Of a stretch of 29,308 nucleotides of DNA, positions 4,235 to 29,308 are shown one piece after another (the first letter of the stretch is position 1; each line of letters begins with the position of its first letter). The notes beneath the pieces are model-generated. The model saw nothing but the letters and a program-made list of their open reading frames with translations, made no database searches and had not been told where the DNA came from. The translations under genes were made by a program, and so were the position numbers. The stretch is from a virus, in the IMG/VR virus record IMGVR_UViG_3300021375_000117, positions 1 to 29,308 of that record. One strand, 5' to 3'.

Positions 4235-6070
4235 CTAGTTCTCCTTTGAATAGTTAATGTAATAACGAGCCTTGCCGTTCTTTCTGTCTCTGTACTGACA
4301 GCACTTATTGTCGAACTCAAAGCCAACTTTGCCTTCGTACATACCATTACGATTCTTTAAAACCTCTAGGTACATATCCCATTGCCTTGTGTACTGCTCA
4401 TCAGGCTCTTCACCTAACATTTCAGCCTGCTCAATCTGCTCTGTCTTGCGCTTGTTTTTCCACACGGATAGGAATCCATCAGCAAGGTCTGTAATTGACC
4501 CCGAACCCTTTACGTCATACTTGTTTGGTGCTGAGTACTCTGACTCACCCTTTCGGACGTGGGTCACAATGAATATCGTGACTGGAAATGACAGCTTGAA
4601 GTTGACAAGCTTTTCTATGAATCTCTGCTGACCCTCATAGTCATCTTGCCTAACCATATTGGTTAAAGAATCGACAACGAATGTGGTAATGCCGTAACGT
4701 CGATATGCATATTCAAAGCAGGACATTAGGTCTTCAGGTTTCGGAGTTAACTTATCAACAAACAGCCACAGGTTTGGGCACATCCACTCAAGCAGTTTCT
4801 TTCTATAGGGTTGGGGTGGTTGCTCTGATCCTGCCGCCTGACGAACCATTCGACCCATCGTTGCTTTAGGTGTCATCTCCATCGAAGCGATTAGTACTTT
4901 CTGTTGCTGTTCAACAGCGTTGAGTGCAAGTTGATTTAGCCACATTGATTTACCGTGACCATTGATGCCGCACACACCCCAGAGTTCATTGGGTCTGAAC
5001 TTGATGTCTTCTTCGTCTAACTTCGCCCAACCAGAGCCAAAGCCCTGAGTGTCATCAGCCTTGTTTTCAAAGTAGTCATCTATCTCTGACTCAAAATCTA
5101 AGACAGATCTAAGAGTCTCAGGATCTTTCCACCGAGCCTCTTCATATGCACACTTGAGCATCCATTGAGCCTGCTCATAACCTTCCTTCTGCAAGAGCTC
5201 ATTAATGTCTTTGGTAGGAAGGTTGACTCGATAGCATCGATCACCAAGTCGCTGCATTATTTCTGCGGCGGCAAGCTCCCCCTGCTCATCCATATCAGTA
5301 GCGATAAGGATCTCTTCGAAGCGTGCTAGGTTCTCGTATTCATGAGCTATCCACTTAGTCTGCTTTGCACCTTTACCTCCACCCATTGGTACAGATAGAG
5401 CAGGGAAACCTAATTCACCACAAGCAATCGCGTCCCACTCACCCTCCGTAATCCAGATCTTCCTGACAGTGTCAGGGATTGCCTGCCAACCAAACAGGAT
5501 TGGCTTTAGATCTTTCTGGGTAGATGGGTTGCCATCATGATTGATCGGCTTAGTCTTTATGAATGTCTCTTTGCCGTCTGTATCAAAGAACGGAAACACT
5601 ACATCCTGACCGCCTCTAGCATCTGTCTCATAGATCTTGTATCGGAAGCACACCTCTCCTACATCTTTGAATCCTCTTTTCTCCATGTATTCATGAAGGT
5701 GTTGATGCTCATTCCTTTCGGGAGGTTTAGGTAGGGTGTAATTTTTCTTTTCCGCCGGAGCAACTTTTTTTGCAGGCGTGTTGTCCCTGATACCATATCT
5801 TTTCTTTGCCCAGTCCATAGCATTGACTAAAGAAAGACCTTGGCTGTACATAATCAAGTCAAGAAGGTCACCACCTTCTCCGGTGCTGAAATCCATCCAC
5901 TTACCGCACTGATCACCGTTGAGATAGACAGACATACTTCTACCTCTTTCACCCTGTATCGATCCTATCTTGTAGCATCCAGACTCGACTCGACCGTCAG
6001 GATATAACTCGTTGCAAATGCCTGCGGCATGAGGCGCTAGGTTCTGCGCTAGCGTTTTAACATCCATCAT
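4235..6070 (-). CDS. Primase-helicase, T7 gp4/twinkle type, 611 aa
   Basis: The protein unwinds the replication fork and may prime. A TOPRIM domain has the metal-binding Glu in WITEGEWDAIA (E209) and the DxD in ATDMDEQGE (D259, D261). A DnaB/RecA-type helicase domain follows, with Walker A GINGHGKS (368-375), Walker B TTFVVDS (about 462-468) and the sensor IVTHVRK (H504). The N-terminal 100 residues contain isolated cysteines (19, 32, 55) but no CxxC pairs, so the zinc-finger primase domain seems degenerate, as in twinkle. The ATG overlaps the stop of the initiator gene upstream (ATGA); a second ATG follows immediately. Length and domain order match phage primase-helicases. Confidence 0.93.
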   Translation of the reverse strand: MMDVKTLAQNLAPHAAGICNELYPDGRVESGCYKIGSIQGERGRSMSVYLNGDQCGKWMDFSTGEGGDLLDLIMYSQGLSLVNAMDWAKKRYGIRDNTPAKKVAPAEKKNYTLPKPPERNEHQHLHEYMEKRGFKDVGEVCFRYKIYETDARGGQDVVFPFFDTDGKETFIKTKPINHDGNPSTQKDLKPILFGWQAIPDTVRKIWITEGEWDAIACGELGFPALSVPMGGGKGAKQTKWIAHEYENLARFEEILIATDMDEQGELAAAEIMQRLGDRCYRVNLPTKDINELLQKEGYEQAQWMLKCAYEEARWKDPETLRSVLDFESEIDDYFENKADDTQGFGSGWAKLDEEDIKFRPNELWGVCGINGHGKSMWLNQLALNAVEQQQKVLIASMEMTPKATMGRMVRQAAGSEQPPQPYRKKLLEWMCPNLWLFVDKLTPKPEDLMSCFEYAYRRYGITTFVVDSLTNMVRQDDYEGQQRFIEKLVNFKLSFPVTIFIVTHVRKGESEYSAPNKYDVKGSGSITDLADGFLSVWKNKRKTEQIEQAEMLGEEPDEQYTRQWDMYLEVLKNRNGMYEGKVGFEFDNKCCQYRDRKNGKARYYINYSKEN

Positions 6071-7651: not shown

Positions 7652-8305
7652 ATGGATATGCTTACCCGAGCCCAAATCTGGGCGACACTGTCTAATATAG
7701 ATGTAACAGAATTTTGTACCGAAACAGAGATACTCGACAATAAAACGTTGACCTATCTGCCTTGGATGAAAGCCCATGAAATCATGATGGGCGAGTTTCC
7801 TGAATACTCTTGGGAGTTCACCGAAGACCCTTCTTCTCGTGAATGTCACTATTTTGATGATGGTTCTGCCGAAGTTAGATGCCGAATGACTATCGGTGGG
7901 CAGACCAACATCACCTACTTACCTGTCCACTCCTCTGGCAAAGCAGTCAGTTCACCCTCAGCAACCGATATCAACCAAGCTAAACAGCGGTGTCGTGTTA
8001 AGGCAATGGGTGAGTTTGGTCTGGGCTACCGGATGTGGATTAGCTCTCAAATTAAAGATATTGAGTCTAAAAGTGCTTTTCAAGATGTACAAAGTACACC
8101 TCCAGAAACAGATGATGCAGATGCAGAACTTCAAAAGGTTATTGCGATCTGGGATCACCTGAAGTTTGGTGACGCCAAAACTCTTAGTGAAGCAACCAAG
8201 CTGTATGACAAGTTTAAACGAGGTCTAACTAATAGAGGCTTAACAGATACCACTGGTAACTGGGAAAAGCTCTGTAAGGAGAATGGTTGGAGGGCTAAGA
8301 AATGA
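7652..8305 (+). CDS. Single-strand annealing protein, DUF1071/Sak-like (Rad52 superfamily), 217 aa
   Basis: The N-terminal 135 residues follow the DUF1071 pattern: LTYLPWMKAHEIMMGEFPEY, then a beta-rich part with TNITYLPVHSS, then INQAKQRCRVKAMGEFGLGY. These proteins anneal complementary single strands and belong to the Rad52-like fold of phage recombinases. A polar linker (STPPETDDADAE) separates a C-terminal helical region of about 60 residues. The gene overlaps the YqaJ exonuclease gene by four bases, which is the usual annealase plus exonuclease pair, and an SSB gene follows. Start: ATG seven bases after GGAG, downstream of a good promoter. Confidence 0.85.
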   Translation: MDMLTRAQIWATLSNIDVTEFCTETEILDNKTLTYLPWMKAHEIMMGEFPEYSWEFTEDPSSRECHYFDDGSAEVRCRMTIGGQTNITYLPVHSSGKAVSSPSATDINQAKQRCRVKAMGEFGLGYRMWISSQIKDIESKSAFQDVQSTPPETDDADAELQKVIAIWDHLKFGDAKTLSEATKLYDKFKRGLTNRGLTDTTGNWEKLCKENGWRAKK

Positions 8306-9330
8306 GTTTAGCTGTCCAAGGATCACCCGAATGGCACGCGGCAAGAGCTGGAAAGATCAAAGCATCTGTCTGCGCCGCGCTAGAGGGTAAGCACCCATAC
8401 ATGAAACCTGCTGACTTAGTTCGCCAAGAAGTACGAGCACTGGCAGGGGCTGAATCAGAATTCAAGATGGTTCCGGCAGTTGCTCACGGGCAAATGATGG
8501 AAGACCATGCAAGGATCTTTCTTGAGAACTTGCAGGACTACACTGTCGAAGAGACTGGTCTGGTTGTACATCCTAAGTATGACTTTATTGCAGCATCTCC
8601 AGACGGACTTGTCGGACTTGACGGCTGCGTTGAGATTAAGTGTCCGTTCCCCCAATACACTAAGACCCCTTACTCTATCTTTGCTCCCAAGAGAAGCATG
8701 TATCTAATGCAGGTCTATATGCAGATGGAAGTGCTTGATGCAGAGTGGTGTGATTTTATTTGTTACCTCGCAAAAAATGAAACGGCGGAACCCCAGTACA
8801 CGTTGGAGAGAGTTCACCGCAAGGAAGACTTTCTAACTGAACTGTTAAGCCGCAAGTACCTGCCTCAGCCTGAGAAGGGAACTATCTCTCGCCTTGATCT
8901 ATATAGATGTTGGCACAACTGGATTCAAGAACAGTATAGAGACGAAGTAACCCGAGCTGAACACGTAAAAACAATTGAGGTTAACGCTCCTGAGGTCATT
9001 AAGACCGATGAGGAACTGAACCGACTAACTGCAATGCAGAACAGGATTGCAGACATTAAGTCACGAATCAGTGACGACTTAGAAACCTTGGACGTACTGG
9101 GAAAGACCAGTGACTCCCTGAAAAAAGATATCGCCGAACGTTACAAGAGTTCTGTCAGCAATGGCAAGACTACTGTGAAGGTGATTATGAAGAACCCACC
9201 AATAGACTATAGAAAAGCGTTTGAGTTCTTGGGTGGTGAAGATGAAGTATTAAATAAAGACGAGTCCCTAGATTCTTTTCGAAGATCGACGGGAGCAATG
9301 CAGGTACAAATTCAACACGGAGAAGTGTAA
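8302..9330 (+). CDS. YqaJ-type (lambda exonuclease family) viral recombinase, 342 aa
   Basis: The start GSPEWHAARAGKIKAS is the diagnostic YqaJ motif. AHGQMMEDHARIF (about 61-73) follows, and the metal site is ASPDGLVG...CVEIKCPF with D101, E111 and K113. A conserved Q lies in YLMQVYMQMEV. The enzyme should digest one strand of a duplex end so that the annealing protein upstream can act. Residues beyond about 230 are an extra helical, coiled-coil-like tail not present in lambda Exo. The ATG overlaps the annealase stop by four bases, so the two are translationally coupled. Confidence 0.92.
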   Translation: MSLAVQGSPEWHAARAGKIKASVCAALEGKHPYMKPADLVRQEVRALAGAESEFKMVPAVAHGQMMEDHARIFLENLQDYTVEETGLVVHPKYDFIAASPDGLVGLDGCVEIKCPFPQYTKTPYSIFAPKRSMYLMQVYMQMEVLDAEWCDFICYLAKNETAEPQYTLERVHRKEDFLTELLSRKYLPQPEKGTISRLDLYRCWHNWIQEQYRDEVTRAEHVKTIEVNAPEVIKTDEELNRLTAMQNRIADIKSRISDDLETLDVLGKTSDSLKKDIAERYKSSVSNGKTTVKVIMKNPPIDYRKAFEFLGGEDEVLNKDESLDSFRRSTGAMQVQIQHGEV

Positions 9331-10518: not shown

Positions 10519-11436
10519 ATGAAGTTAACATTTAAAGAAATAGCTGATCGTTATTTGGCACAGCCAAGCGCACATAACGATGAGAAGCAGAGAACCACGG
10601 TAGTTGTCGCTAATAACCTTATTAAGGTGTTTGGTAACAAGCCGATTAAAGCATTTGAAAAGATCGCTCTTTTCGATAATTTTATTGAGGATCTGCGGGT
10701 ACAACCATCCAAAAGGAAAATTGGTCAAAGGGTCAGCAATAGCTGGGTTAACAAGCACACTATTATTATGCGAGCTATTCTTAACTACGCTTACAGTAAA
10801 GAGCATATAAATAGAGTGCCTAAGTTGTCCGTGTTGCCAGAGACTAAGAGCAAGATCTTTCTTAAGCCTCAACAGGTTCTCGACCTTATTGGAACTTTGG
10901 ATGACTTGAGAGCAGATCAAGTTAGATTTGCAGTAGCGACAGGGTTGCGAAAGACAAACATCAGACTTTTGAAGTGGGGGCAAATATCAGAAGACTTGTC
11001 GTCACTTCTTGTCGATGGAAAAGATGCCAAGATGGGCGAGGATATCCTCATCCCGTTAAACGCAGATGCTCGAGCAGTCTTGCTGCGACGAAAGGATTTA
11101 AACGATGCTCTAGTAAAGAAGCATAGGTATCTTCGCAACAAGATAGACTATGTCTTTGTTCAGCAGTCTGGAGGCAGAACAAAGGTAGGTAATGTTTTAA
11201 GTGAAATTACAAACAGCACCTACAAGAATGCTTGCAGAAAAGCTGGCTTGCCAGAAGGAACCACCTTTCACACCATGCGTCACACATTTGCTAGCTGGCA
11301 CATTGAAAACGGAACGAGTGAGATGGTGCTTATGGAGTTAGGAGGATGGAAAGATCGTACTTCATTGCAACGATATGCTCATCTAAACCAAGCTCAAAGA
11401 AAGATTGCATCGTCTAACATTGAAGGAATGCTATAA
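10519..11436 (+). CDS. int: Tyrosine recombinase, phage integrase, 305 aa
   Basis: All catalytic residues are visible: Arg in ATGLRKTNI (R144), Lys in KDAKMGEDI (K171), HTMRH (H251 and R254), GGWKD (W277) and the nucleophile in LQRYAHLN (Y286). Residues 1-100 form the SAM-like core-binding domain (VSNSWVNKHTIIMRAILNYA). There is little or no separate arm-binding domain, which is common in phage integrases of about 300 residues. The enzyme would integrate the phage into, and excise it from, the host chromosome. The SD site is held in a small hairpin. No tRNA fragment is seen beside the gene, so the host target is not evident. Confidence 0.93.
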   Translation: MKLTFKEIADRYLAQPSAHNDEKQRTTVVVANNLIKVFGNKPIKAFEKIALFDNFIEDLRVQPSKRKIGQRVSNSWVNKHTIIMRAILNYAYSKEHINRVPKLSVLPETKSKIFLKPQQVLDLIGTLDDLRADQVRFAVATGLRKTNIRLLKWGQISEDLSSLLVDGKDAKMGEDILIPLNADARAVLLRRKDLNDALVKKHRYLRNKIDYVFVQQSGGRTKVGNVLSEITNSTYKNACRKAGLPEGTTFHTMRHTFASWHIENGTSEMVLMELGGWKDRTSLQRYAHLNQAQRKIASSNIEGML

Positions 11437-12846: not shown

Positions 12847-15800
12847 TTAATTTAACTCTTCATTTAATAGCTGTTGAATTAATGTCCATCTATCAACAAA
12901 CTCTTTACTCTTCTGCTTACCAAACAAAACGTCTGACTTAGATATTGAGTTCTTTAAAGTGCTGTCTGACATAGTCCAAGCTGATGCCCCACCCTGAATC
13001 AAAGCCCTAGCATCCTTCTTGGTCACGCCGTTAGAGCGCAATATTGTCATTGTTTGTGTAGCGTTTAAGCCGGAACTCATAGCTGCACTTACCAGAGCTG
13101 CCATATCTTCAAAGGTCTCGCGCCTAGCTGTAGAAGCTCTGCCAAAAGCTTCTCGTATATCGCTATCCGATACATCGTTAGGGTCTCTAAACACGGAGGT
13201 AAGCAGTCTAGTTGACTGGCGCTTACCTTCTGAGAACTCATACGCCTTAAAGTGCAGTGCAGTCTTAGGATCAAATGTAGTCTTACGGAAGCCTATAAAT
13301 GCCGCCATTTCATCACCAACATCGTAAGCCTTACCGCCTCTAGATATTTCTCCTGAAAGAGCTTTCTCCATACGGCGACCGTTCTGTATAACGCTTGGTC
13401 CCATACCTCTCTCAAAGTGCATGTAGGTATCTACAGCTTTATTGGCTAGCGTGTCAGCCTCGTTATAGACCTCACCGCCTGACGTCTTCTCGTTTGAGAT
13501 AAACTCTAAGATAGTATTGGTGGATATATCCCAGCCTAAGAACGGCTTAAGTATTTCAACCCCAGCATCTACTACAGCATCATCTAGCGGCTGATCTCTC
13601 AGTAACGCATTTAATGGACGCTTCATTAGTGCGTATGGGTCAAGATGAGTAAGATCTAAGTACTCTAAGCGACCTTGATCATCTCTACCTGTTACCAGTA
13701 TGTTTGAGTTCTTAGCCCAAGGAGCTGCCATCAACTTGATAGCCTCTTCCTCTTCTTCCGAAACACCAAACGCTGACATAGCCATTGCTTGAGCTGCATA
13801 CACACCCGCACTAACCATACCTATACCTGCAATACGCTTAAGAGCAGCAGGTCTCATGTCTGGATCTGCCAAGTCTTCACGCAAGTACTTGATCATGTTC
13901 GCTTGCGTCCTAACAATTTCTGCGGGGAAAGAAACAAACGTGCCAGCAAGAGGAAAACGTCTTAACTTCTGAGGCAGATCACCAATCAGAGAGTAAGTTG
14001 GGTAGGTGTCACGAATACGCTTAGCTGATTTGATCTCAGCTTCTTCGCGTGACATGCCCTTGTTCTCCATGAAGTTGATGATTTCATTCTCGAAGCCAAC
14101 GATCTTCCAGAAGTCATCACCATACTGATAGAACCGTGTAGCGTTATCAAAGAATGACTTCATCATTCCTGTGCCTGATACCCACTGCTCTGCGTTAGTG
14201 TCCTTCAACAGATCTACCATCTCGCCAGCGTATGGGTTGTCGTGTACTACACCTAGCTTTTTCAGGCGCTTTAAGTACTCAACGCCGTCACCTTGACCTG
14301 TTCTGTAGCTACTGGTCACATCAATCGACTTGCCTATTTTAGACCAGTTAAAGTGCCCATTTGCCACAGTAAACAGAGATGCAGACATCCAGTTACGAGC
14401 CATAGTGGTAGGTGCGATTACAGTCTTACCGTACTTGACCATACCGTTGATCTGGATAACCGTCTTATACAAGCCTCCTAGCTGCTCCTTATCTAGGGCG
14501 TCTCTGAATGCTTGCTCTATCTCAGGGAATGTATATAAGCCGTTGAGGGGGGACATGGTTTTTGACCCGACTTCCGCAATTTTTTTCGTTGCGCCTACCG
14601 GAGCATCTGCCTGATCAAACAGGAATACACCCTTACCGTCTTTAAGAACTTGGTTAAGGAACCTGTCGTTGTAGATAAGGCGAGACATCTTGGTGGCTGA
14701 CTTAGCGAAGTTGATTCGCGCATCCTTATACTCACCTAGAAGTGCCCGTATCTCTGGGGCTATATCCTTTTGTTTCTTCAGGATGGATAGGTCTTTTGCC
14801 CCTAACTTAGACTCGGCAATAAACGATGACATATCATCAAAGGCAGTACCTTCTTTGAGTATGGTATTGATTACCTGATCTGGGTTAGTAGTACCCTGCT
14901 CTACAAGGAAGTTTCTAGCTGCCAAAATGATTTCTTTGGGGACTTCTTTGTTCCAGTTCTTATCGTCAAAAGCCCTGTGGCTTCTGTTTGCATACTTACC
15001 CATATTGTTGACAACAATGCTTAACAACTCACTCTTGGCTAGCGCTTCATCGTTACCCTCAGACTTCAGCTTTTCTATATCTGAGTTAAGTATCTCAGCA
15101 TAGTCAGCTGACATCTTGTCGATGTAGTTACGCATTGCTACCAGAGCTTCCTTAATATCATTAGGTAGCTTAGAAGCCATAACTTCTGCCGCTGGTACTT
15201 GCATTGCTTTGTCCAACACAGCAGCCTGTGATGCGTCTATCTCGCCGAAGTTGTTCTGAACCGCTTCATCAAACAATCCAACCATCTGGCGGATGTCCAT
15301 CTCCACAGCACCGAACTCACCATCACGCTCGATCTTTGAATCAAACGCTGTCTCAGGCAATAGACCTCTGGAGTAGAAGTTCTTCTGGAACCACTTCTTA
15401 AAACCTGAAGCTGCAAACCCTGCTGCTGCCTTAACATCTTTATCTTTGACTGCGTCGATTACTTGACTGCCGTCTGATCCAGCGCGAACAGATGCAACCA
15501 AGTCTTCATCCGACATGATCTCTGCGGCTGTACTTGTGGGGGCAGTTACGAAGTCCTTCTCTGAAGGTCTTTGTGGGGGTGAGTCTAGCTGATCTGTAGA
15601 AACTCCGGCAGCATCGATTCTAGCTCCGCTTCCAGTGGCTTCTTGGGGTCCAGAGTCCTGTCTGGGTACGCCTCTATCAGATAGGATTCTCTCGTAACTG
15701 GTTTCTGATACTTCGTCAGGTACTGAAGAATCGGATCGCTCCCAATCAGGTCTTTGTATTCCTCCGGAATGCTCATTGATTTTTACCCTTGCCTCATCGA

Positions 15801-18800
15801 GGCTTAATTTACCGTTATTATATTGACTCCATACGCCTTGTACAAATACGCCGTTTTGTTTATTTGACTTATAACCGGCAGTAAATAAACCCCTTACTGC
15901 CTCCCAAGTAATTGACTGCATCTCTCTAGGCAACACGTTTCTATCTTTGGCGGCTCTTCGGTATGCTTCCTCATAAAGTGAATACGTTCCTCTGTGACCC
16001 GTAACTGTAGAGTTTGAGGCGCCCGAGCCAAAGTTTGCCGCTACCTCTGGAGAGTTCCCTCCTAAAGGTCTGATTAAGCCAGCGGCGACAGCATGGGTGT
16101 CTATCGTCACAAAACCTAAATCAGATGCAGGATCAAAAATATTGTTGTAAAAGTTTCTGACCTTGTTCTTATCGCCGAGAGACAAGGAAAGTGTATCCAT
16201 ATCGCTATTAATCAGCGCTGTGACAGCCTTCCCTATTTCAGAGAGCGAACCCCAAGCAACCTTTGACCGAGTTTTCCCGTTTGCGTTTAGCGCATAATCT
16301 AATAATTTCCCGTCAGGAGAAACTATTCGATAACTCGGAGCGTTGTACGTCTGATCATAGGTCCGTATCCACATCCCTAAAATATTACTTGGAGCATCCT
16401 CTCGAATTAAATCGCTCAGAGATTTTTCTTTAATGATGTCCAGCTTTTCTCTGTTTTCTATTTTTGTCTTAGCATTTACACCCTTATGAAAATATATTTG
16501 CTCGGCTTTTTCTTTCATAGCCTGATCAAACGGGTCGTTCATGTTCTGGTGATATATATCAATAACTCTCTCAGCTAGGCTAGCATTCTGATACCAGTCT
16601 TTCTGTGGAGATAAGTTAGCAGTTACAGCGCTCGCTTGAGCAAGCGAAATGCCATGCCTGTCAGCCATTCGCTGTACGATTTTGTTTGCGCCCTCGTACC
16701 ACTGTTTCGATACTTCTCTTGTGGCTTGAGGAACAGAATCAAATATATATAACAGGTTGTCTCGCACATGATTTACAAATCTTTCGGCAACAACCTCATC
16801 CGATCCGTTTTGCTCTTGCTGTGTAAGGTTTGTGTAGGGCTTTATGAGAGCAATGTTTTTGCTAAACAGATTGCCAGCATTCAAAAAACTTTCGTAGTCG
16901 TTGACCAATAATTCTCTTAAAGGGTCTTGAGTTCTTTCTTTAGCTGTAGGGAACCTAGTGCTTACCGCCTGATACAGGGCATCATCATCGAAGCCAGCCA
17001 GATCATCCATCGGATCATAGTCGTCATCGATATCACCAAGATCTTGCTGAACAGCGTCCGCTTCAGCTTTCTCTAGTCGTTCACTGTGTGCTTTATTAAG
17101 CCACTGCAAGGCTTCCTTTCGATTGTCACCGATACCGCCAGTTCTTGCGATGGCGTTGAAGTCCAGCTTGAGAATGTCATAGTACTCTGGAGACAAGTGC
17201 CACATTGGATTGGCAAACTGCATTGTGTCTCGATAGATTAAGTATTCAGTGCCGTCCGGATAGGTGACGTTATAGTTACCAGTGTTCTCAAAATCTGCGG
17301 CTCGTTTTACCTTCGGCTCTGTTTGCTCTAGCTGTACAGCTCGTCCATCCCTGTCCCCAGCTTCACGTTGGGTCGGTTCTCCCAGTCCTTGACTGGCTTG
17401 TTCCGCATCAAGGCTACTTCCGCCATCTCCTCCAGATCCTTCTTGCTCCTGAACTTGAGTGCTTCCGCGCTGGGTAGGTGACCGAACTTCTCCCTGTACT
17501 TCTTGAGGTTGCCCGTTAGCTTCATTGGTCCGAATGTCAGCTTCGCCATTTTGAATAGTCTCCGTTGGTTGCGTTCTAAGCAGTCTCTCTAGATGCTTAT
17601 ACGTTTTTGGTGCTTGCTCCTGAAGTAGTTCAGGGCTTGTATGAAAGATGGCAAACGCTTGAGCGAATGCTTCTTTCTGCATGCGATCTACTTGACCCGC
17701 TATATTCTGAGGTTCTGAATTAGCTATCCATTCAAATGCTGGTCCGAATGGGTATGCTAACTCTTGACCTAACTCTGTGCCACTTAAATAGTTTTGACCC
17801 AGCTCATGGATAACTGGTCCCATCTCGTAAGTAGCCGAGTTCATGCCCATCCCGTTTACCTCTAAAGAAAAGTCTGGAGAGTTGGTTGTGTGACCAGTGC
17901 CTACATCAAAAGCATGACCGATTTCATGAGCAAGATTAAATCTGAGTTCGATAGCAGAATCGCTGCTATTGTCTTTGTCGGCTATAAGTTCCTTAACTCT
18001 CGCACTATTTAGCGTTATCGCTTTAGATGCTTTTAAGTATGAGCCAGCTACCTGCCTGTCCATCTGGCTATCGGTATGTGAATAAAAGCCGCTTACATAA
18101 TTCATCACACGCTTTGGAAGACCTGCACCTAGCAGATCAACTAGAGCGTGCTTAATCTCATCAGCCTGAACACCTTCGGCTACAGTAATCGTATTACCGT
18201 TCTGCATCACAACTTCAGGAGACGCAAACAAACTGTCTATACGACCTTGATCAATAGGTGATCTATTAGCGCCTTGAGAATCATTGATGTCAGATATAGC
18301 CTGAGCCAAAGGCTTCATGTTAGGGCGCGTTACATTCTCTGTGTAAGCAACCGCAGGCATATCGCTCATAGAACCTTGAGGGATCGTGAGGCTTTGAGTT
18401 GCTATCTCTTGAATGCCCTCTACCACAGCTTCTGCATTAGGCATTGATTGCGCGATATCTATAGCTTGAGATGCCGGAACACTATCTGGGATGTTGTCTG
18501 GGTCAGACTGCTGTATTACCTGCTTTTGTATGCTTGCAGGTAAGTCATCTAGTTCTACTATAATTTGAGAGAAGTCAGGAACTGGAGTCTTTTGGTTATT
18601 GATTCTAGCTACTACTTCTGGAGTCCTAATAGTTTTCTTTGCACCGTTCTCATCCCTTACTGCTAGAGATAAAGGATTACCTTCTGCATCTCTTATAATT
18701 CGGGTGAGAGAATATTTTTTCCCGCGCAATTCAAATTTATTGTTGTCATCAATCTGAACGTCTTTCTCGAATACCAGATTGCCACCAGTAGGCACGACAC

Positions 18801-20535
18801 CTAACTGCTCTGGAGACTGGTACTCACCACTCTCAATAAGCACGTCACCGTTGTCTTGAGTTGCTACGTAGAACCCGTCGTCTTTCTTAAGTACTGGTCC
18901 TTTGTTTCCGTTGTAGTCTACGTCCTGACCTACAAGCTCTTCCATTCTGGGGGTGATAGACTCTGGTAAGTTGCCACCAAACACTGGAGGCTCTTCAGCT
19001 ACAGGCTCTGGCTCTTTGTCTTTAGGTATTCTTGTTGTCTCACCTAGAGCACCAAGCTCCATCTGATAGATTTTTTTGACCTTTTCTCGAACGGCAGGAA
19101 GCCCCTCAATTTGCGCCCTTGCTTTTGCTCTAGCTTCTTCTTGCCTTGCTTCAGGGTCAGATCGATCTTGACGATCTGGGAAGTCATCAATTTCTCGACG
19201 AACTTCCTCTCTGCTTTTTGGAGCTATAGTCGTTCTGCCAGTAGGCAATCTACGCCCATCAATTTGCGTCTCGGTTCTACTCCTAGCCTGCTCTCTAGCT
19301 TGTTCTACCGTTAGTGGGTCAGTGCGCGGGTCATTCCTTGCTCTGCCTTTAGGAAGATCGAGAGCTTTTTCTCTTGCAGCCTGAACCTTTGCTCCGCCCT
19401 TGTCAGTTGACTCTGGTTGCGGCTGATCATCTATAACCGGAGCTTGTTCTTGTTCTTGAGCCTGCTCTTCATCTAAAACAACTTCCGGCGAGCTTTCTTC
19501 AGACTTACCGTCTAAAGCATTCTCATCTAGGTTTTGCTTTAGCTCTGGATCTTTAGTGACAGCACCAGTAACGCCGCCGATAGCTCCACCACCAATGGCA
19601 CCAGCTACAAACGCATTAAGGTATTGAGATCGGTTCTCTTCATCGAACAATCGCTCAAGGAACGCTTCCTCTATAGCAGGGTCTTGCTGACCGCGTACAA
19701 ACTCCAAGGTAGAGTTCTGTACAACTTCCTGCATCATCTCCGTTACGCCTTCAGTACCGGATGCTTTGGCTGCCTCTTTAAATGCGCGACCAATGACTGA
19801 TTGTTTTTTGCTTACGTTTTCAGCTATTTCTTGAGTAGCTTTGCCGTATAGGTTTTGTGGTAAGACACGCTTCAAGACTCTCATTGGAGTCATTGCGTCT
19901 AACGCACCAGATGCTAGACCCGTAACAAGTGCTAGACCAGCAGCCTCTTCACCAGTCTCATCAAAGATTCTAGTAAAGGATTCTCCCGCACCCATCACCG
20001 TACCAAAACCTACAGCGCCTGCGACCTGACCCTTTAGCCCAACCTTACCCAAAGCCTCTCTGCCTACAGCTGACTGTGCGTACTGCCTTGACGCTGCACT
20101 CTTCGCCATTCCTTCAGCGTTCTTTTTGACTAGAGCTTTTGCGCCTTGATGTATGGCTAGCTTCTTGGCGGCAAAACCCCCTACTGCACCAACACCACCG
20201 CCCCCAATGAGGCTAGGTATAATGTTGCCTACGATAAATGCAGCATAATTTGCTAAGTCTCCACCACCATCAATGTCTTCTAGCCTTCCGACATCAGCAG
20301 TATTCTCAGCGGCTTCTGCCATCTGCTCGTCGAAGTACTGCATACCGTCATAGAACCAATCATCGTTACCGACAGCCGATCCAACTAACGCTTTTGCACC
20401 ACCGGCAAGAGCCTGCAACTGATCTACACCAGCGCCGAAACCCTTACCGAATTCGTTAAGAACTCCGGTTTCCTCTTCTTCCTTGAAGGTTTTTAGACGG
20501 GCGTTGTTAAAGTCTTGATTCGCATATATGGGCAT
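12847..20535 (-). CDS. Giant polyvalent (injected) virion protein with metallopeptidase, 2562 aa
   Basis: One uninterrupted frame. The N-terminus (about 90-125 and 310-330) has Gly-rich hydrophobic stretches (IGGGGVGAVGGF, GAIGGGAIGGVTG) suited to membrane passage. Residues about 383-482 hold charged imperfect repeats. A zincin follows, with HEIGH (H870, E871, H874) and a downstream EAFAQAFAIFHTSPE. A region at about 1180-1570 has LSPQKDWYQN and VTIDTHAVAAGL, like HhH-glycosylase-related domains of polyvalent proteins. The last 900 residues are helical (FPAEIVRTQANMIKYL), as in LPD-type domains. Such proteins are packaged and injected with DNA in podoviruses and protect or modify it. Low-complexity linkers near 996-1070 and 1587-1651 each contain a nested ORF. 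The RBS is weak (CAGGT). Confidence 0.85.
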   Translation of the reverse strand: MPIYANQDFNNARLKTFKEEEETGVLNEFGKGFGAGVDQLQALAGGAKALVGSAVGNDDWFYDGMQYFDEQMAEAAENTADVGRLEDIDGGGDLANYAAFIVGNIIPSLIGGGGVGAVGGFAAKKLAIHQGAKALVKKNAEGMAKSAASRQYAQSAVGREALGKVGLKGQVAGAVGFGTVMGAGESFTRIFDETGEEAAGLALVTGLASGALDAMTPMRVLKRVLPQNLYGKATQEIAENVSKKQSVIGRAFKEAAKASGTEGVTEMMQEVVQNSTLEFVRGQQDPAIEEAFLERLFDEENRSQYLNAFVAGAIGGGAIGGVTGAVTKDPELKQNLDENALDGKSEESSPEVVLDEEQAQEQEQAPVIDDQPQPESTDKGGAKVQAAREKALDLPKGRARNDPRTDPLTVEQAREQARSRTETQIDGRRLPTGRTTIAPKSREEVRREIDDFPDRQDRSDPEARQEEARAKARAQIEGLPAVREKVKKIYQMELGALGETTRIPKDKEPEPVAEEPPVFGGNLPESITPRMEELVGQDVDYNGNKGPVLKKDDGFYVATQDNGDVLIESGEYQSPEQLGVVPTGGNLVFEKDVQIDDNNKFELRGKKYSLTRIIRDAEGNPLSLAVRDENGAKKTIRTPEVVARINNQKTPVPDFSQIIVELDDLPASIQKQVIQQSDPDNIPDSVPASQAIDIAQSMPNAEAVVEGIQEIATQSLTIPQGSMSDMPAVAYTENVTRPNMKPLAQAISDINDSQGANRSPIDQGRIDSLFASPEVVMQNGNTITVAEGVQADEIKHALVDLLGAGLPKRVMNYVSGFYSHTDSQMDRQVAGSYLKASKAITLNSARVKELIADKDNSSDSAIELRFNLAHEIGHAFDVGTGHTTNSPDFSLEVNGMGMNSATYEMGPVIHELGQNYLSGTELGQELAYPFGPAFEWIANSEPQNIAGQVDRMQKEAFAQAFAIFHTSPELLQEQAPKTYKHLERLLRTQPTETIQNGEADIRTNEANGQPQEVQGEVRSPTQRGSTQVQEQEGSGGDGGSSLDAEQASQGLGEPTQREAGDRDGRAVQLEQTEPKVKRAADFENTGNYNVTYPDGTEYLIYRDTMQFANPMWHLSPEYYDILKLDFNAIARTGGIGDNRKEALQWLNKAHSERLEKAEADAVQQDLGDIDDDYDPMDDLAGFDDDALYQAVSTRFPTAKERTQDPLRELLVNDYESFLNAGNLFSKNIALIKPYTNLTQQEQNGSDEVVAERFVNHVRDNLLYIFDSVPQATREVSKQWYEGANKIVQRMADRHGISLAQASAVTANLSPQKDWYQNASLAERVIDIYHQNMNDPFDQAMKEKAEQIYFHKGVNAKTKIENREKLDIIKEKSLSDLIREDAPSNILGMWIRTYDQTYNAPSYRIVSPDGKLLDYALNANGKTRSKVAWGSLSEIGKAVTALINSDMDTLSLSLGDKNKVRNFYNNIFDPASDLGFVTIDTHAVAAGLIRPLGGNSPEVAANFGSGASNSTVTGHRGTYSLYEEAYRRAAKDRNVLPREMQSITWEAVRGLFTAGYKSNKQNGVFVQGVWSQYNNGKLSLDEARVKINEHSGGIQRPDWERSDSSVPDEVSETSYERILSDRGVPRQDSGPQEATGSGARIDAAGVSTDQLDSPPQRPSEKDFVTAPTSTAAEIMSDEDLVASVRAGSDGSQVIDAVKDKDVKAAAGFAASGFKKWFQKNFYSRGLLPETAFDSKIERDGEFGAVEMDIRQMVGLFDEAVQNNFGEIDASQAAVLDKAMQVPAAEVMASKLPNDIKEALVAMRNYIDKMSADYAEILNSDIEKLKSEGNDEALAKSELLSIVVNNMGKYANRSHRAFDDKNWNKEVPKEIILAARNFLVEQGTTNPDQVINTILKEGTAFDDMSSFIAESKLGAKDLSILKKQKDIAPEIRALLGEYKDARINFAKSATKMSRLIYNDRFLNQVLKDGKGVFLFDQADAPVGATKKIAEVGSKTMSPLNGLYTFPEIEQAFRDALDKEQLGGLYKTVIQINGMVKYGKTVIAPTTMARNWMSASLFTVANGHFNWSKIGKSIDVTSSYRTGQGDGVEYLKRLKKLGVVHDNPYAGEMVDLLKDTNAEQWVSGTGMMKSFFDNATRFYQYGDDFWKIVGFENEIINFMENKGMSREEAEIKSAKRIRDTYPTYSLIGDLPQKLRRFPLAGTFVSFPAEIVRTQANMIKYLREDLADPDMRPAALKRIAGIGMVSAGVYAAQAMAMSAFGVSEEEEEAIKLMAAPWAKNSNILVTGRDDQGRLEYLDLTHLDPYALMKRPLNALLRDQPLDDAVVDAGVEILKPFLGWDISTNTILEFISNEKTSGGEVYNEADTLANKAVDTYMHFERGMGPSVIQNGRRMEKALSGEISRGGKAYDVGDEMAAFIGFRKTTFDPKTALHFKAYEFSEGKRQSTRLLTSVFRDPNDVSDSDIREAFGRASTARRETFEDMAALVSAAMSSGLNATQTMTILRSNGVTKKDARALIQGGASAWTMSDSTLKNSISKSDVLFGKQKSKEFVDRWTLIQQLLNEELN
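15585..15776 (-). CDS. Nested ORF inside the giant gene, 63 aa
   Basis: This lies in the +1 frame of the polyvalent gene. It begins MSIPEEYKDLIGSDPILQYL, then has YQKPVTRESYLIEAYPD and EAELESMLPEFLQ, with a balanced, protein-like composition. Short phage proteins with a PxTRExY...AY pattern followed by AELExxLP are, from memory, common in structural modules. The overlapping stretch of the giant protein is a Ser/Asp/Arg/Gly/Pro-rich linker between domains. An AAGGG site lies about ten bases before the ATG. It is probably an overprinted gene; if not, it is an unusually protein-like chance frame. Confidence 0.5.
   Translation of the reverse strand: MSIPEEYKDLIGSDPILQYLTKYQKPVTRESYLIEAYPDRTLDPKKPLEAELESMLPEFLQIS
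17328..17549 (-). CDS. Nested ORF inside the giant gene, 73 aa
   Basis: This lies in the same +1 frame as the nested ORF at 15585-15776. It begins MAKLTFGPMKLTGNLKKYRE, continues KFGHLPSAEALKFRSKKDLE, and ends GTGMDELYS. GGAG lies ten bases before the ATG. All lysines are AAG, and codons ending in C or G dominate. In the giant frame this stretch is a Gln/Glu/Gly/Ser-rich linker, and its Q and E residues arise largely because AAG codons of the nested frame are read as CAA and GAA. That makes the nested frame look like the constrained one. Expression is not shown. Confidence 0.55.
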   Translation of the reverse strand: MAKLTFGPMKLTGNLKKYREKFGHLPSAEALKFRSKKDLEEMAEVALMRNKPVKDWENRPNVKLGTGMDELYS

Positions 20536-24337: not shown

Positions 24338-24685
24338 TTACGCTTTGGGGTAGGAGTCTTTTACTTCTTTTATTGCTGTAAAGAACTCACCTGTTTCATT
24401 AAGTGTACCGTTGTCTATATCGTGAAACAGTTTGTCTAACTGATTTGCAATGCTTGGGTAAGTTAATGCCCTAGACTCTGCGTATGTAGGCTCTGGAGCT
24501 GTTGCCGTAACATACTGAATTACTGTTCCAAACTCGTCATCAACAACATAATCTACTTCATCTCTTGGCAACCTATCCGGAGCTGGTGCATACGCATACC
24601 ATCCTGACTGGTCCTTCATGCCTGCTTGTGGACCTGCCGTTATGCGTCCCTCACCTGTATCAAATTGAACATAAAGTTGTGTCAT
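24338..24685 (-). CDS. Tail-fibre-associated protein, 115 aa
   Basis: The protein begins MTQLYVQFDTGEGRITAGPQ and has acidic and beta-rich early parts. The C-terminal third, RALTYPSIANQLDKLFHDID, matches a pattern (YPxxxxQLDxL) common at the ends of tail-fibre assembly and XkdW-like phage proteins, followed by a helix and VKDSYPK. Its ATG overlaps the fibre stop (TAATG), so it is co-translated with the fibre. It is likely a chaperone or minor component of the fibre, though it could be structural. Confidence 0.65.
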   Translation of the reverse strand: MTQLYVQFDTGEGRITAGPQAGMKDQSGWYAYAPAPDRLPRDEVDYVVDDEFGTVIQYVTATAPEPTYAESRALTYPSIANQLDKLFHDIDNGTLNETGEFFTAIKEVKDSYPKA

Positions 24686-27600
24686 TATCGTAGGCTCATA
24701 GCTATGCCTTCTAAGGCGTAAATTTTATCCATCACCCAATTTTTGTATGGCTGGCTGCTTGGAACGTAGTACTTGTTCGCGTTGTAAACTCCAATCCTAA
24801 TTTCAAAATCAACAGCCGAGCTTGTCTTGGTGCCAAGACCGCCACTAATAGAGAACTGATATGGGTGGTAGTCAGACGCAGACCTGAAGAAAAAGTCATT
24901 AACCATAGTGTACTGATTGGTCAGGATCTGTCCGAACACAGACATGTTTGTGGTGATTGTTGATGTTGACGCTCTTGTGTAATAAATTCGAGTTCTATCT
25001 GTTGATGACGTATAGCCGCTGGATGATGTGTTGCCGTAGGTGTAGCCCATTACCAGTAATGCAGATCCCGAAGAGACAAGGGATGTTACATCTCCAGCCA
25101 CTTCAAACCAGTAGATAATATAACCAAAGCCGTAATTTTGAGATCCGTGATTGGTTACAGTCCCTAGAGAAGGAGTAGAACTTGATGTGTCGTTTGTTTT
25201 CATCCATAGCTCTAATCTGTAGGCGTCGTCATTCTCAAACACACCCCAACCTTCCGCACTGATGTAAGCTCTTTTCTCTACACCGTCCGCCTGAGCAGGA
25301 ATTTGACCTGTGAATATGACTTGCTCTGCTCCGTTAGGTGCATCAATTGCTACCGCCGAAGATAGAGAGAACGGAATCAGATCATTGATATCACCAGTTA
25401 TTTGGTCAGCTCTTAGGTTCTCTACTGTTATGTTGGCAGCGTTTATTGTTCCTGAGGTTATCTTGTTAGCTGATATGTCACCTAAGGTTAGTGTGGGAAC
25501 ACCGTTAACGTCCTGCGACGTAAGGAATACACCGTCAATGTTAAGGAGGGAGGTTGATATTTTTCCGCCCGAAATTCTATTTGCGTTTAACTGACCCGTA
25601 ATGTTTGCAGTATCAATTGTAGCGTTGCCAATCTGTGCTGTAGTAATCGTACCGTTCTTAATGAACGCACCATCCATATAAACACCGGCAGGGACAATAA
25701 CATTACCGTTCTCATCTTCTATATCCTCACCTTCAACCGTGAACGGAACTAAAACCTGAGTGTCATTTATGGGCTCGTTTGAAACTTGAGTCGAAGTAGT
25801 CTGAGGATTTACGATGGCGAACCGATCAGCCCTAACAATAAATGCAGAGGTTGGAGTTCCGTCATCATTGCTCGTGTTAGACAACCCGAATCCGGCTATA
25901 TGTCCTTGGTTGTCTACTTTTACGGAGTACTGTGATGAAAGTCCTGTCTCAGAATCTCCAACAATTTCCTGAGTAGTTTCAATAGCGGCTTTAATTCCGC
26001 TTGTTCCATCTTCACCATTAACAACAACTTGCAAGGTGTCAATCTTACTTGCGCCAGTCTGGTCTGTCTCAGACCCAAATACCTCTAGATTTATTTTTGA
26101 CGCAAAATCAGCTCCAGCTAATAAGACAGCGTTATCTGGATTACCTTGATCCCAAAGTGCTGCTGATAACTGCGAAACTCTAGATGCATTACTATCACCA
26201 TTCGGAAACACTTCGGTCTGTACTTTGTCAAAAGCCTCGGACGTAGCCAGCTTTAATGTCCCCGACGTATCACTATTAACAAACATAGATGCCGCTATGT
26301 TATCGACCTTATCAACCAACGCTCCACTGTTGTTTACCGTCGCATTAAGAGTCCCAAATTGAGCGGCTGTTGCCAAAGCTAGCTGCTCGTTACCATTAGA
26401 ATCTGTGTCATAAAGAACAGCCCTTAATCCATCTATTCTAGAAGCTGAAACATTTCCATCGGGACCAAAAACCTCTGTTTGTAATGTTGAAAATGCGTCA
26501 GCATCCGCAAGCTTCACATTATTATTTTCATCAAATACGGCTGAACTGAGAGCGTCTATTTTAGAAGCTCCTGCCTGAGGGGTTACACCCTCACCGTACA
26601 CGCTAGTGTTTAATACGGACACAGCACCGGAGGTTGCAGTAAGACCTGTTGTTGGATTTGTTATTGTCGCATCTAACGTGTCTATTCGAGATGAAGTCGC
26701 ACCAGAAGGCGTTACTCCATTGCCCCAAACCTCAGTTTCTAACAGAGATAAGGCTCCAGCGCCTGCTAACTTAACATTGCCCCCAGAATCAAACATCGCA
26801 TTATTTAAATCAACCACATCCGACTGAACCGACGTAACAAGACCTGAAGGGGGATCAGTAGAGTCATCGTAAATAGCTGTTACTTTGTTGCTAAGAGCAC
26901 CTAGAGCGCTGCCTGTAGCAAGTCTTGAGGTATCGTTAGCATTAAATACCTCAGCATCTAGGCTGGTTACTTTTTCCTGTATGGCGCTAATTTGAGTAAC
27001 CGCGTCTGGGTCATTGGGGTTGTATATTGCAGTTACGTTATTAGTTAACCCGTCTAGCGCATCTACTGTAGCTAACTTAACCTGATTGCCATTAAATACC
27101 GCACCTTCCAATGCTGTAGATCTACCTTGTAGCGACTTAACCGCAGACGCTTCATTGGGGTTATCTGGATTATAGATAGCCTCAATGCTAGTTGTTAAAC
27201 CATCAATGGAATTTTGCGTTGCTAATTGAACAACTCCATTAGAATCGAAAACTGCTGACTCAAGATCAGTTACATCGCTTTGAATTGTTTTAACAAGTGA
27301 TACTGCATTTGGATCGTCAGGGTTATAAATAGCCTCAACAGATGTGGTAAGACCAGACAATGCAGAAGTAGTAGCAAGTAAAACATTTCCGCTAGAATCA
27401 AAAACGGAGTTATTTAAATCAGTTATGTCATCCTGAACAGACTTAACAACACTAGCATTTCCGCCATCATAGATTGCAGTAACACTATTGGACACTGTAT
27501 TTAAAGCAGAACCTGTAGCTAATCTTGCAGACCCATCTGAATTAAATACTTCTCCTTCTAATGAAGTAATATCAGACTGAATTGTTTTTACAACAGACAC

Positions 27601-29308
27601 TTCACTAGGGTTTTCAGGGTTGTAAATAGCTTCCACTTCTGATGAAAGCGCAGATATCGCCGCAGATGTTGCTATTGCTACAGTTCCATCAGCATTAAAA
27701 ACTGCACCATTTAAAGTTGAAACGTCGTCCTGCACTGACTTAACAACACTGGCATTTGTGCCGTCATAGATTGCAGTTACCGAATTACTTACCCCAGTTA
27801 AAGCTGAACCCGTTGCAAGTCTAGCCGAGCCATCCGAATTAAAGACTTCACCTTCAAGAGCAGTTACATCTGTCTGCACAGTCTTAACTACACTAGCATT
27901 CGTTCCGTCGTAGATAGCTGTTACGCTGTTGGTAAGTCCAGATAAAGCCGACCCCGTGGCAAGTCTAGCCGAACCATCCGAATTAAATACTTCGCCTTCT
28001 AGCGCACTTACATCGGTTTGCACGGACTTAACGACACTGGCGTTAGTGCCATCATAGATCGCTGTAACTGAGTTAGTAAGACCCGACAAGGCTGATCCTG
28101 TGGCTAGTCTAGAAGACCCGTCAGAATTAAATACTTCACCTTCTAGGTCGGTAATGTCTGTTTGTACACTTTTAACGACACTAGCATTTGTACCATCGTA
28201 GATGGCAGTGACGCTATTAGTCAGACCTGACAGGGCAGTTCCGGTCGCTAACCTTGCGGAACCGTCAGAATTAAATACTTCACCCTCTAAAGCGGTGACA
28301 TCATCTTGTACGCTTTTAACAACGCTTGCGTTGGTCCCGTCATAAATCGCCGTTACGGAATTAGTTACTCCGGTAAGTGCAGATCCTGTAGCTAATTTTG
28401 CAGATCCATCTGCGTTAAATACTTGCCCTTCTAGTGCTGTAACGTCTGTCTGTATTGAGGTGATTGTTCCGGCTTGAGTGCTAACTGTATTTGTTAGACC
28501 TGTTAACGCGGTTCCAGTAGCTAAGCGAGCAGAACCATCAGAATTAAAAACCTCACCCTCAAGATCTGTAATATCCGTCTGAGCGCTAGATATGTTATTT
28601 CCTTGGGTGGTTACTGTATTTGTTAGGCTTGTTACAGCTGCTCCAGTAGCTAATCTAGCGGAACCGTTGGAGTTAAATACTTCCCCCTCCAAACTTGTCA
28701 CGTCCGCAGCTATAGAGGTTACCGTTCCGTTGAGATTTACAACGGTGGTATCAAGGGCGGTTAACGCTGAAGATGTGGCTAAACGAGACGACCCGTCGCC
28801 ATTAAATACTTGAGAGTTTAGAGAAGTAATTGATGCTTGGTTAGATGCAATTCTTGGATCAGCAATACTTACCCAGCTAGAGCCGTCATAATAATAAGGC
28901 GCCATATTGTCATCAGAGTCATACCATCTAGAGTTTGTCGCAATCGTGCCGGTTGGTGCTGAAGTCTGAACGTAAACCGAGCTAGTGCCAGACGTTAAAT
29001 CTGACACAGATGACTGAAGATTGCTTACAGATGTATTTAAAGATGACAGGCTGCTATCAACAGAAGTATTTCTTGAGCTAACAGAACTTTGCAGCGTTGA
29101 CACGGTACTGCTTAATGATGATGCAGAAGCTGCTGCCGAGTTAGCGGACGCTTGAGCTGTTGCTGCGGCGGACGAGGCTGCCGTGGCGGCAGAAGCAGCA
29201 GTGTTTGCTGTAGCCTCAGTATTACCAACGCGGGTTAAAAGATTAGCGCCACTATATGTAGTGGTATACCCAGTATAAGCATCTAACCCATCTATCCTGC
29301 CGTCAAGT
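24685..29308 (-). CDS. Tail fibre / receptor-binding protein with lambda-J-like (DUF1983) domain; 5' end beyond the window
   Basis: The frame remains open to the right edge; GTG at 29103 is internal, and about 68 more residues lie upstream (DGRIDGLDAYTGYTTTYSGA, then an Ala/Ser/Thr-rich coiled-coil-like stretch). At least 1540 residues are in the window. About 19 tandem repeats follow, with units such as EVFNSDGSARLATGSAL and VTAIYDGTNASVVKSVQ; these should form an extended trimeric fibre shaft. Next comes a DUF1983-type domain (AGFGLSNTS, then AFIVRADRFAIVNP, then a triple-beta repeat with GAFIKNGTITTAQIGNATID). The last 300 residues form a variable tip with Ser/Thr/Tyr-rich beta segments, probably binding the host surface. 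Confidence 0.88.
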   Translation of the reverse strand, partial: LDGRIDGLDAYTGYTTTYSGANLLTRVGNTEATANTAASAATAASSAAATAQASANSAAASASSLSSTVSTLQSSVSSRNTSVDSSLSSLNTSVSNLQSSVSDLTSGTSSVYVQTSAPTGTIATNSRWYDSDDNMAPYYYDGSSWVSIADPRIASNQASITSLNSQVFNGDGSSRLATSSALTALDTTVVNLNGTVTSIAADVTSLEGEVFNSNGSARLATGAAVTSLTNTVTTQGNNISSAQTDITDLEGEVFNSDGSARLATGTALTGLTNTVSTQAGTITSIQTDVTALEGQVFNADGSAKLATGSALTGVTNSVTAIYDGTNASVVKSVQDDVTALEGEVFNSDGSARLATGTALSGLTNSVTAIYDGTNASVVKSVQTDITDLEGEVFNSDGSSRLATGSALSGLTNSVTAIYDGTNASVVKSVQTDVSALEGEVFNSDGSARLATGSALSGLTNSVTAIYDGTNASVVKTVQTDVTALEGEVFNSDGSARLATGSALTGVSNSVTAIYDGTNASVVKSVQDDVSTLNGAVFNADGTVAIATSAAISALSSEVEAIYNPENPSEVSVVKTIQSDITSLEGEVFNSDGSARLATGSALNTVSNSVTAIYDGGNASVVKSVQDDITDLNNSVFDSSGNVLLATTSALSGLTTSVEAIYNPDDPNAVSLVKTIQSDVTDLESAVFDSNGVVQLATQNSIDGLTTSIEAIYNPDNPNEASAVKSLQGRSTALEGAVFNGNQVKLATVDALDGLTNNVTAIYNPNDPDAVTQISAIQEKVTSLDAEVFNANDTSRLATGSALGALSNKVTAIYDDSTDPPSGLVTSVQSDVVDLNNAMFDSGGNVKLAGAGALSLLETEVWGNGVTPSGATSSRIDTLDATITNPTTGLTATSGAVSVLNTSVYGEGVTPQAGASKIDALSSAVFDENNNVKLADADAFSTLQTEVFGPDGNVSASRIDGLRAVLYDTDSNGNEQLALATAAQFGTLNATVNNSGALVDKVDNIAASMFVNSDTSGTLKLATSEAFDKVQTEVFPNGDSNASRVSQLSAALWDQGNPDNAVLLAGADFASKINLEVFGSETDQTGASKIDTLQVVVNGEDGTSGIKAAIETTQEIVGDSETGLSSQYSVKVDNQGHIAGFGLSNTSNDDGTPTSAFIVRADRFAIVNPQTTSTQVSNEPINDTQVLVPFTVEGEDIEDENGNVIVPAGVYMDGAFIKNGTITTAQIGNATIDTANITGQLNANRISGGKISTSLLNIDGVFLTSQDVNGVPTLTLGDISANKITSGTINAANITVENLRADQITGDINDLIPFSLSSAVAIDAPNGAEQVIFTGQIPAQADGVEKRAYISAEGWGVFENDDAYRLELWMKTNDTSSSTPSLGTVTNHGSQNYGFGYIIYWFEVAGDVTSLVSSGSALLVMGYTYGNTSSSGYTSSTDRTRIYYTRASTSTITTNMSVFGQILTNQYTMVNDFFFRSASDYHPYQFSISGGLGTKTSSAVDFEIRIGVYNANKYYVPSSQPYKNWVMDKIYALEGIAMSLR
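26100..28810 (-). repeat. Tandem coding repeats of the tail fibre (about 19 units)
   Basis: The best-preserved units are 47 codons (141 bp) long. Starting from the right, successive VF(N/D)..G....LAT cores are close to identical for units 3-8, then diverge and lengthen toward the tip. The DNA of neighbouring units differs at many third codon positions although the protein is nearly the same. Confidence 0.85.

Follow-up and report, generated by a model that had tools for sequence, protein, structure and literature searches.

How the built-in proteases of polyvalent giants, which are phage-delivered multi-enzyme proteins, stay inactive in the producing cell is, to our knowledge, an open question. 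The IMG/VR virus record IMGVR_UViG_3300021375_000117 poses it in a particular form. In its 29,308 nucleotides, referred to here as the window, a giant polyvalent-type gene contains, directly after its ATLF-like zincin metallopeptidase domain, a complete 73-codon open reading frame (ORF) in the +1 frame of the same strand. An initial annotation, made from the letters of the window, had taken this nested frame for a hidden gene older than the giant frame that overprints it. Does the nested frame encode a protein, does that protein belong to the giant or to the protease, and which of the two frames came first? The comparison of relatives described below supports a conserved frame, start, and ribosome-binding site, constraint at the level of the protein, and a strict association with the zincin.

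A conserved coding frame within the giant gene

The nested frame begins at giant codon 996, and its features in the window were confirmed as first described: a GGAG Shine-Dalgarno (SD) site lies ten bases upstream of the ATG, all of the lysines are encoded by AAG (11/11), and the GC content is locally raised (0.554, compared to 0.461 +/- 0.035 across 222-nt stretches of the giant, with a value this high in 10 of 2489 such stretches). In the giant frame the same DNA reads as a Gln/Glu/Gly/Ser-rich linker, a composition that follows from the nested frame, which supports the earlier suggestion that it is a by-product. The length of the ORF, judged on the window sequence alone, is within chance. 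When the synonymous codons of the giant were shuffled 1000 times, 41% (ATG start) to 71% (any start) of the shuffles had a +1 ORF of 73 codons or more; because equally long frames arise so often, length was rejected as evidence, and what sets the nested frame above chance is its conservation across relatives. The shuffles speak for an open frame that arose by chance and has no function, a reading that is refuted by the conservation of the SD site, the synonymous freeze, the omega values, the co-occurrence with the zincin, and the 48 relatives, and to which we assign virtually no probability.

Relatives of the nested protein were found by single-protein and profile searches of viral contigs and then merged to distinct proteins (n = 48), at identities of 90, 86, and 50% and lower, to about 30%. 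Stops interrupting the +1 frame in close relatives had been named as a sign against the gene, and none were encountered: all 48 frames are complete, in the +1 phase, and inside an open giant frame, with the giant, where complete, mostly 1800–3500 aa in length. The 45 members measured span 72–92 aa, and the family is basic (mean isoelectric point (pI) 9.25) and hydrophilic by grand average of hydropathy (mean GRAVY -1.0). The core of the family (Y-x3-FGH-x-PS-x-EA ... L-x2-A-x2-AL ... P-[IV]-x2-W-x-[DE]-R) is an amino-acid motif kept in relatives down to about 30% identity; Y18, the FGH residues, W56, and R59 are among the conserved residues.

Selection on the two frames was compared in 16 close pairs from several clades, using codons with an unchanged giant-frame amino acid. 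Synonymous differences in the giant frame amounted to 34 of 960 in the overlap (3.5%) versus 2000 of 5452 in the flanks (36.7%; p 1.5e-121), and among the window and the two relatives nearest to it the overlap had 1/60, 0/53, and 0/49 versus 340/873, 510/1731, and 388/911 in the flanks. The third codon position of the giant, which would ordinarily vary most, usually ranks lowest or second lowest in variability within the overlap, since it coincides with the second position of the nested codon, and substitutions in the overlap are concentrated at the third (wobble) position of the nested codons. Just over half of these substitutions (51%, with 25% expected) are synonymous in the nested frame and 16% (27% expected) in the giant frame. 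The crude omega in the overlap is 0.31 for the nested frame and 1.9 for the giant frame, in agreement with the earlier view that the constraint is on the nested frame.

The initiation signals are likewise kept. The nested start codons comprise 41 ATG and 4 GTG, and an SD match of at least 4 nt precedes 40 of the 45 nested starts (89%) versus 16% of the 3138 ATGs in the +1 frame of these giants that served as controls. The RNA at the nested starts has less structure than the giant has on average (mean z +1.0). These signals bear on whether the frame is reached by a +1 programmed frameshift, in which ribosomes would slip from the giant and yield a zincin with an alternative C-terminus. The location of the nested frame directly after the zincin, in the +1 phase in all relatives, would suit such slippage, but the start codon and SD site are conserved, the nested frame is open upstream of its start for only a short, variable stretch that is not conserved, and reading of the upstream sequences revealed no apparent slippery site; a frameshift is accordingly considered very improbable.

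The frozen synonymous sites of the giant could also reflect an RNA or DNA element, such as a packaging site or structured RNA, with no protein made, and a second frozen stretch without an open frame in the same gene adds to the case for it. An element of this kind would not explain why changes cluster at nested third positions, why the amino-acid motif persists to about 30% identity, or why the SD site and start are retained, and there was no Rfam match in the window; its probability is lower still than that of the frameshift. The second stretch (13693–13800) covers about 35 giant codons in which the window and its two nearest relatives show no synonymous change (in its core, 0 of 66 codon pairs differed synonymously, versus 33% overall) and has no open alternative frame. 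As the freeze is not seen in more distant relatives, the stretch is probably a recent recombination tract.

Taken together, the synonymous freeze, the constraint on the nested frame, and the kept start and SD site rule out a frame open by chance and leave a pure RNA or DNA element very improbable. The nested frame has the attributes of an overprinted gene, in that it is a complete same-strand ORF in another frame, is under purifying selection that suppresses synonymous change in its host, and possesses, at the sequence level, its own start and ribosome-binding site. It is almost certainly a real protein-coding gene, and the proposal of a hidden gene is thereby borne out.

Association with the zincin and the host giants

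A search for the zincin domain returned 51 loci, of which 50 carry the nested gene and the remaining locus ends at a contig edge. The most distant zincin found (L176, 30% identity) is followed by a diverged nested gene with its own GGAGG. A second search, for the LPD38-type C-terminus, was independent of both the zincin and the nested gene and yielded 54 loci with the start of the giant inside: 39 have both zincin and nested gene, 15 have neither, and none has one alone. Three giants (L234, L236, and L237) carry an LHEGTHGGI metallopeptidase instead of the ATLF-like zincin and lack the nested gene, while their C-termini are as similar as those among nested-positive giants; on reading, the N-terminal region is similar in L234 and L237, and L236 is cut at its start. 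These three giants represent an apparent natural swap of the protease module. Because of the 39/15/0 distribution and the swapped giants, the nested gene follows the ATLF-like zincin and not the giant as such. The strict co-occurrence with an enzyme domain that marks intragenic inhibitors is thus present here, and it is likely that the nested product is a functional partner of the zincin module.

The Pfam ATLF match of the zincin (E 1.7e-4) is under the curated cut-off; across the family the HExxH motif and an Asp are invariant and a downstream Glu nearly so. The AlphaFold2 (AF2) model of the domain has a predicted local distance difference test (pLDDT) score of 91, and its best matches in the PDB, weak and non-significant, include zincins (lethal factor and selecase among them). 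At the loci measured, the nested start lies 118–154 codons downstream of HExxH.

Table 1. Positions of the nested gene, the parts of its host giant, and other genes in the window
Feature	Position	Strand	Remark
Nested gene, 73 aa, ATG to TAG	17328..17549	-	+1 frame of the giant; small basic product rich in helix
GGAG Shine-Dalgarno site	17560..17563	-	10 bases between site and nested ATG
Giant polyvalent-type gene, 2562 aa	12847..20535	-	Host ORF of the nested gene
ATLF-like zincin metallopeptidase domain	17624..18147	-	Directly upstream of the nested gene
HEIGH (HExxH) active-site motif	17914..17928	-	126 codons before nested ATG
Conserved N-terminal region, giant residues 27-325	19561..20457	-	Common to family giants with intact start
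DUF7178 domain of the giant	16492..16776	-	Variable cargo, in few relatives
Giant C-terminal region, phrog_22602 'virion structural protein'	12922..15030	-	One of two alternative family C-termini
Primase-helicase gene	4235-6070	-	
YqaJ-type recombinase gene	8302-9330	+	
Integrase gene	10519-11436	+	
Tail-tip gene	24685-29103	-	Upstream of the giant, same strand

The host gene has the properties of a polyvalent protein gene: it is very long and multidomain, contains a metallopeptidase (MPTase), has variable cargo, and lies near virion genes (Table 1). Giants of the family have the N-terminal region and the zincin/nested block in common, and the remainder is shuffled. The neighbors of the block on its N- and C-terminal sides differ among giants, as does its spacing, and where the start of the giant is intact the position of the nested gene ranges from about codon 750 to 1550; DUF7178 is present in the window, L093, and L100, and the C-terminus is either phrog_22602-like or LPD38-like. 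One shuffled segment can be traced in the window, where giant residues 1064–1148, after the overlap, resemble residues 754–824 of the L005 giant, before its zincin. Based on the integrase, YqaJ-type recombinase, primase-helicase, and tail-tip genes, the record appears to represent a tailed phage that is possibly temperate.

Order of origin and proposed role

The nested frame had been proposed to be the older of the two, with the giant frame overprinting it. The part of this claim that concerns constraint stands, as described above, and the part that concerns age does not follow from the available comparisons. Codon use is atypical in both frames (z -3.6 for the nested frame and -2.7 for the giant) and does not discriminate their ages. 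The absence of any homologue outside giant genes had been named in advance as evidence against the proposal, and no stand-alone copy was identified when viral contigs, 50,697 phage records, plasmid records, and a bacterial genome collection were searched with single proteins and profiles, nor did any isolate phage record among those searched carry the nested gene. The few weak matches in these searches (expectation value (E) about 1 or more) were taken as chance, and the one among them that was checked, at an Alteromonas phage, scores under 5 bits with the nested profile; L134 is an unrelated protein with one common motif. Some giants lack the nested gene, whereas every copy of the nested gene among the loci searched lies in a giant, which leans toward an origin of the nested gene inside the giant. 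Leaning the other way, a structured nested protein lies over a disordered-looking giant linker, on which ground the nested frame could have come first, with a zincin gene reading through a downstream partner gene.

With respect to function, we favor, with somewhat more belief than doubt, a gene that lies out of frame within the linker after the zincin and is translated on its own, with a product that would most likely bind or keep the zincin. The proposed targets of polyvalent MPTase domains are the giant, which they would process either ahead of delivery or after it, and proteins of the host (PMC5512222), and because they may cleave either, an unregulated zincin would be hazardous to the producing cell. 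Ribosomes would initiate internally on the messenger RNA (mRNA) of the giant, and a separate 73-aa basic helical product would be made together with it. This product is predicted to bind the zincin, or the giant around the zincin, as an inhibitor or holding chaperone, and this would keep the zincin from cleaving the giant or other proteins of the producing cell ahead of packaging and delivery. An inhibitor or holding chaperone would fit in that the partner stems from the same mRNA and is never separated from the protease. The product as a protease keeper in the strict sense can be put forward tentatively, and slightly more tentatively still a small protein, overprinted on the linker, that keeps the zincin of its own giant silent until the giant has been delivered.

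It should be noted that several points weigh against such a role. The zincin patterns used in the zincin-domain search were derived from nested-positive members, and much of the co-occurrence would be expected from physical nesting if the block is passed on whole. The structure model of the nested protein is of moderate confidence (pLDDT 70, predicted template modeling (pTM) score 0.51), and fold comparison of this model returned no structural match. As regards direct support, binding and inhibition by the nested product are a predicted role. The nested gene may instead be real but have a product that acts independently, for example as an anti-defence, host-takeover, or virion assembly factor, with its adjacency to the zincin due to block inheritance, for which the chances are appreciable but short of even. 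The overlap makes recombinational separation costly, the product is small and basic like some phage effector proteins, and it has no homologues elsewhere and hence offers no functional clue. The protease-swapped giants with family-type ends, which also lose the nested gene, can be held against an independent function, though block inheritance predicts the same outcome.

Relation to known systems

Out-of-frame embedded genes are already a known kind in phages. In lambda-type Rz/Rz1, a small phage gene is fully embedded in the +1 frame of another and the two products cooperate (PMC6139136), and the nested gene is likewise complete in the +1 frame of a larger phage gene. Here, however, a giant polyvalent protein is the host, the overlap falls in an internal linker rather than at a C-terminus, and the proposed partner is a protease domain rather than a membrane spanin. 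The nested product is soluble-looking and helical, and its sequence has no feature of a lipoprotein or membrane protein; on reading, the sequences of 34 relatives showed neither a hydrophobic signal at the N-terminus nor a lipobox cysteine, and the protein therefore lacks the signal sequence and outer-membrane lipoprotein character of a two-component spanin.

A functional parallel to the predicted role would be the Rpn systems, in which the intragenic small protein RpnS inhibits its own toxic full-length RpnL (PMC10327210). In both cases a small helical product comes from within the gene of a potentially harmful enzyme, with translation and inhibition being predicted for the nested protein. 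RpnS is a separately translated C-terminal domain of RpnL, whereas the nested protein is read in a different frame and so has no sequence in common with the protein of its host gene.

Polyvalent proteins with zincin-like MPTase and LPD domains were described by Iyer et al. 2017 (PMC5512222), and the host giant resembles them in its great length, late-gene context, zincin, and shuffled cargo, and in the LPD38 C-terminus of many relatives. The nested protein differs in having no match to any library model: searches of protein family libraries gave sub-threshold matches only, and no family model fits. The terms 'overlap' and 'alternative frame' are absent from the main text of that paper, and neither the nested family nor its place in polyvalent giants nor the link to a protease domain was found in the libraries and open-access papers searched. 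Freezing of synonymous sites can reveal gene-sized hidden frames even when the frame alone is statistically ordinary, and phage annotation and protein-family libraries probably miss further frames of this kind. For the polyvalent giants, a hidden gene coupled one-to-one to one protease family would be a direct candidate for the silencing of that protease.
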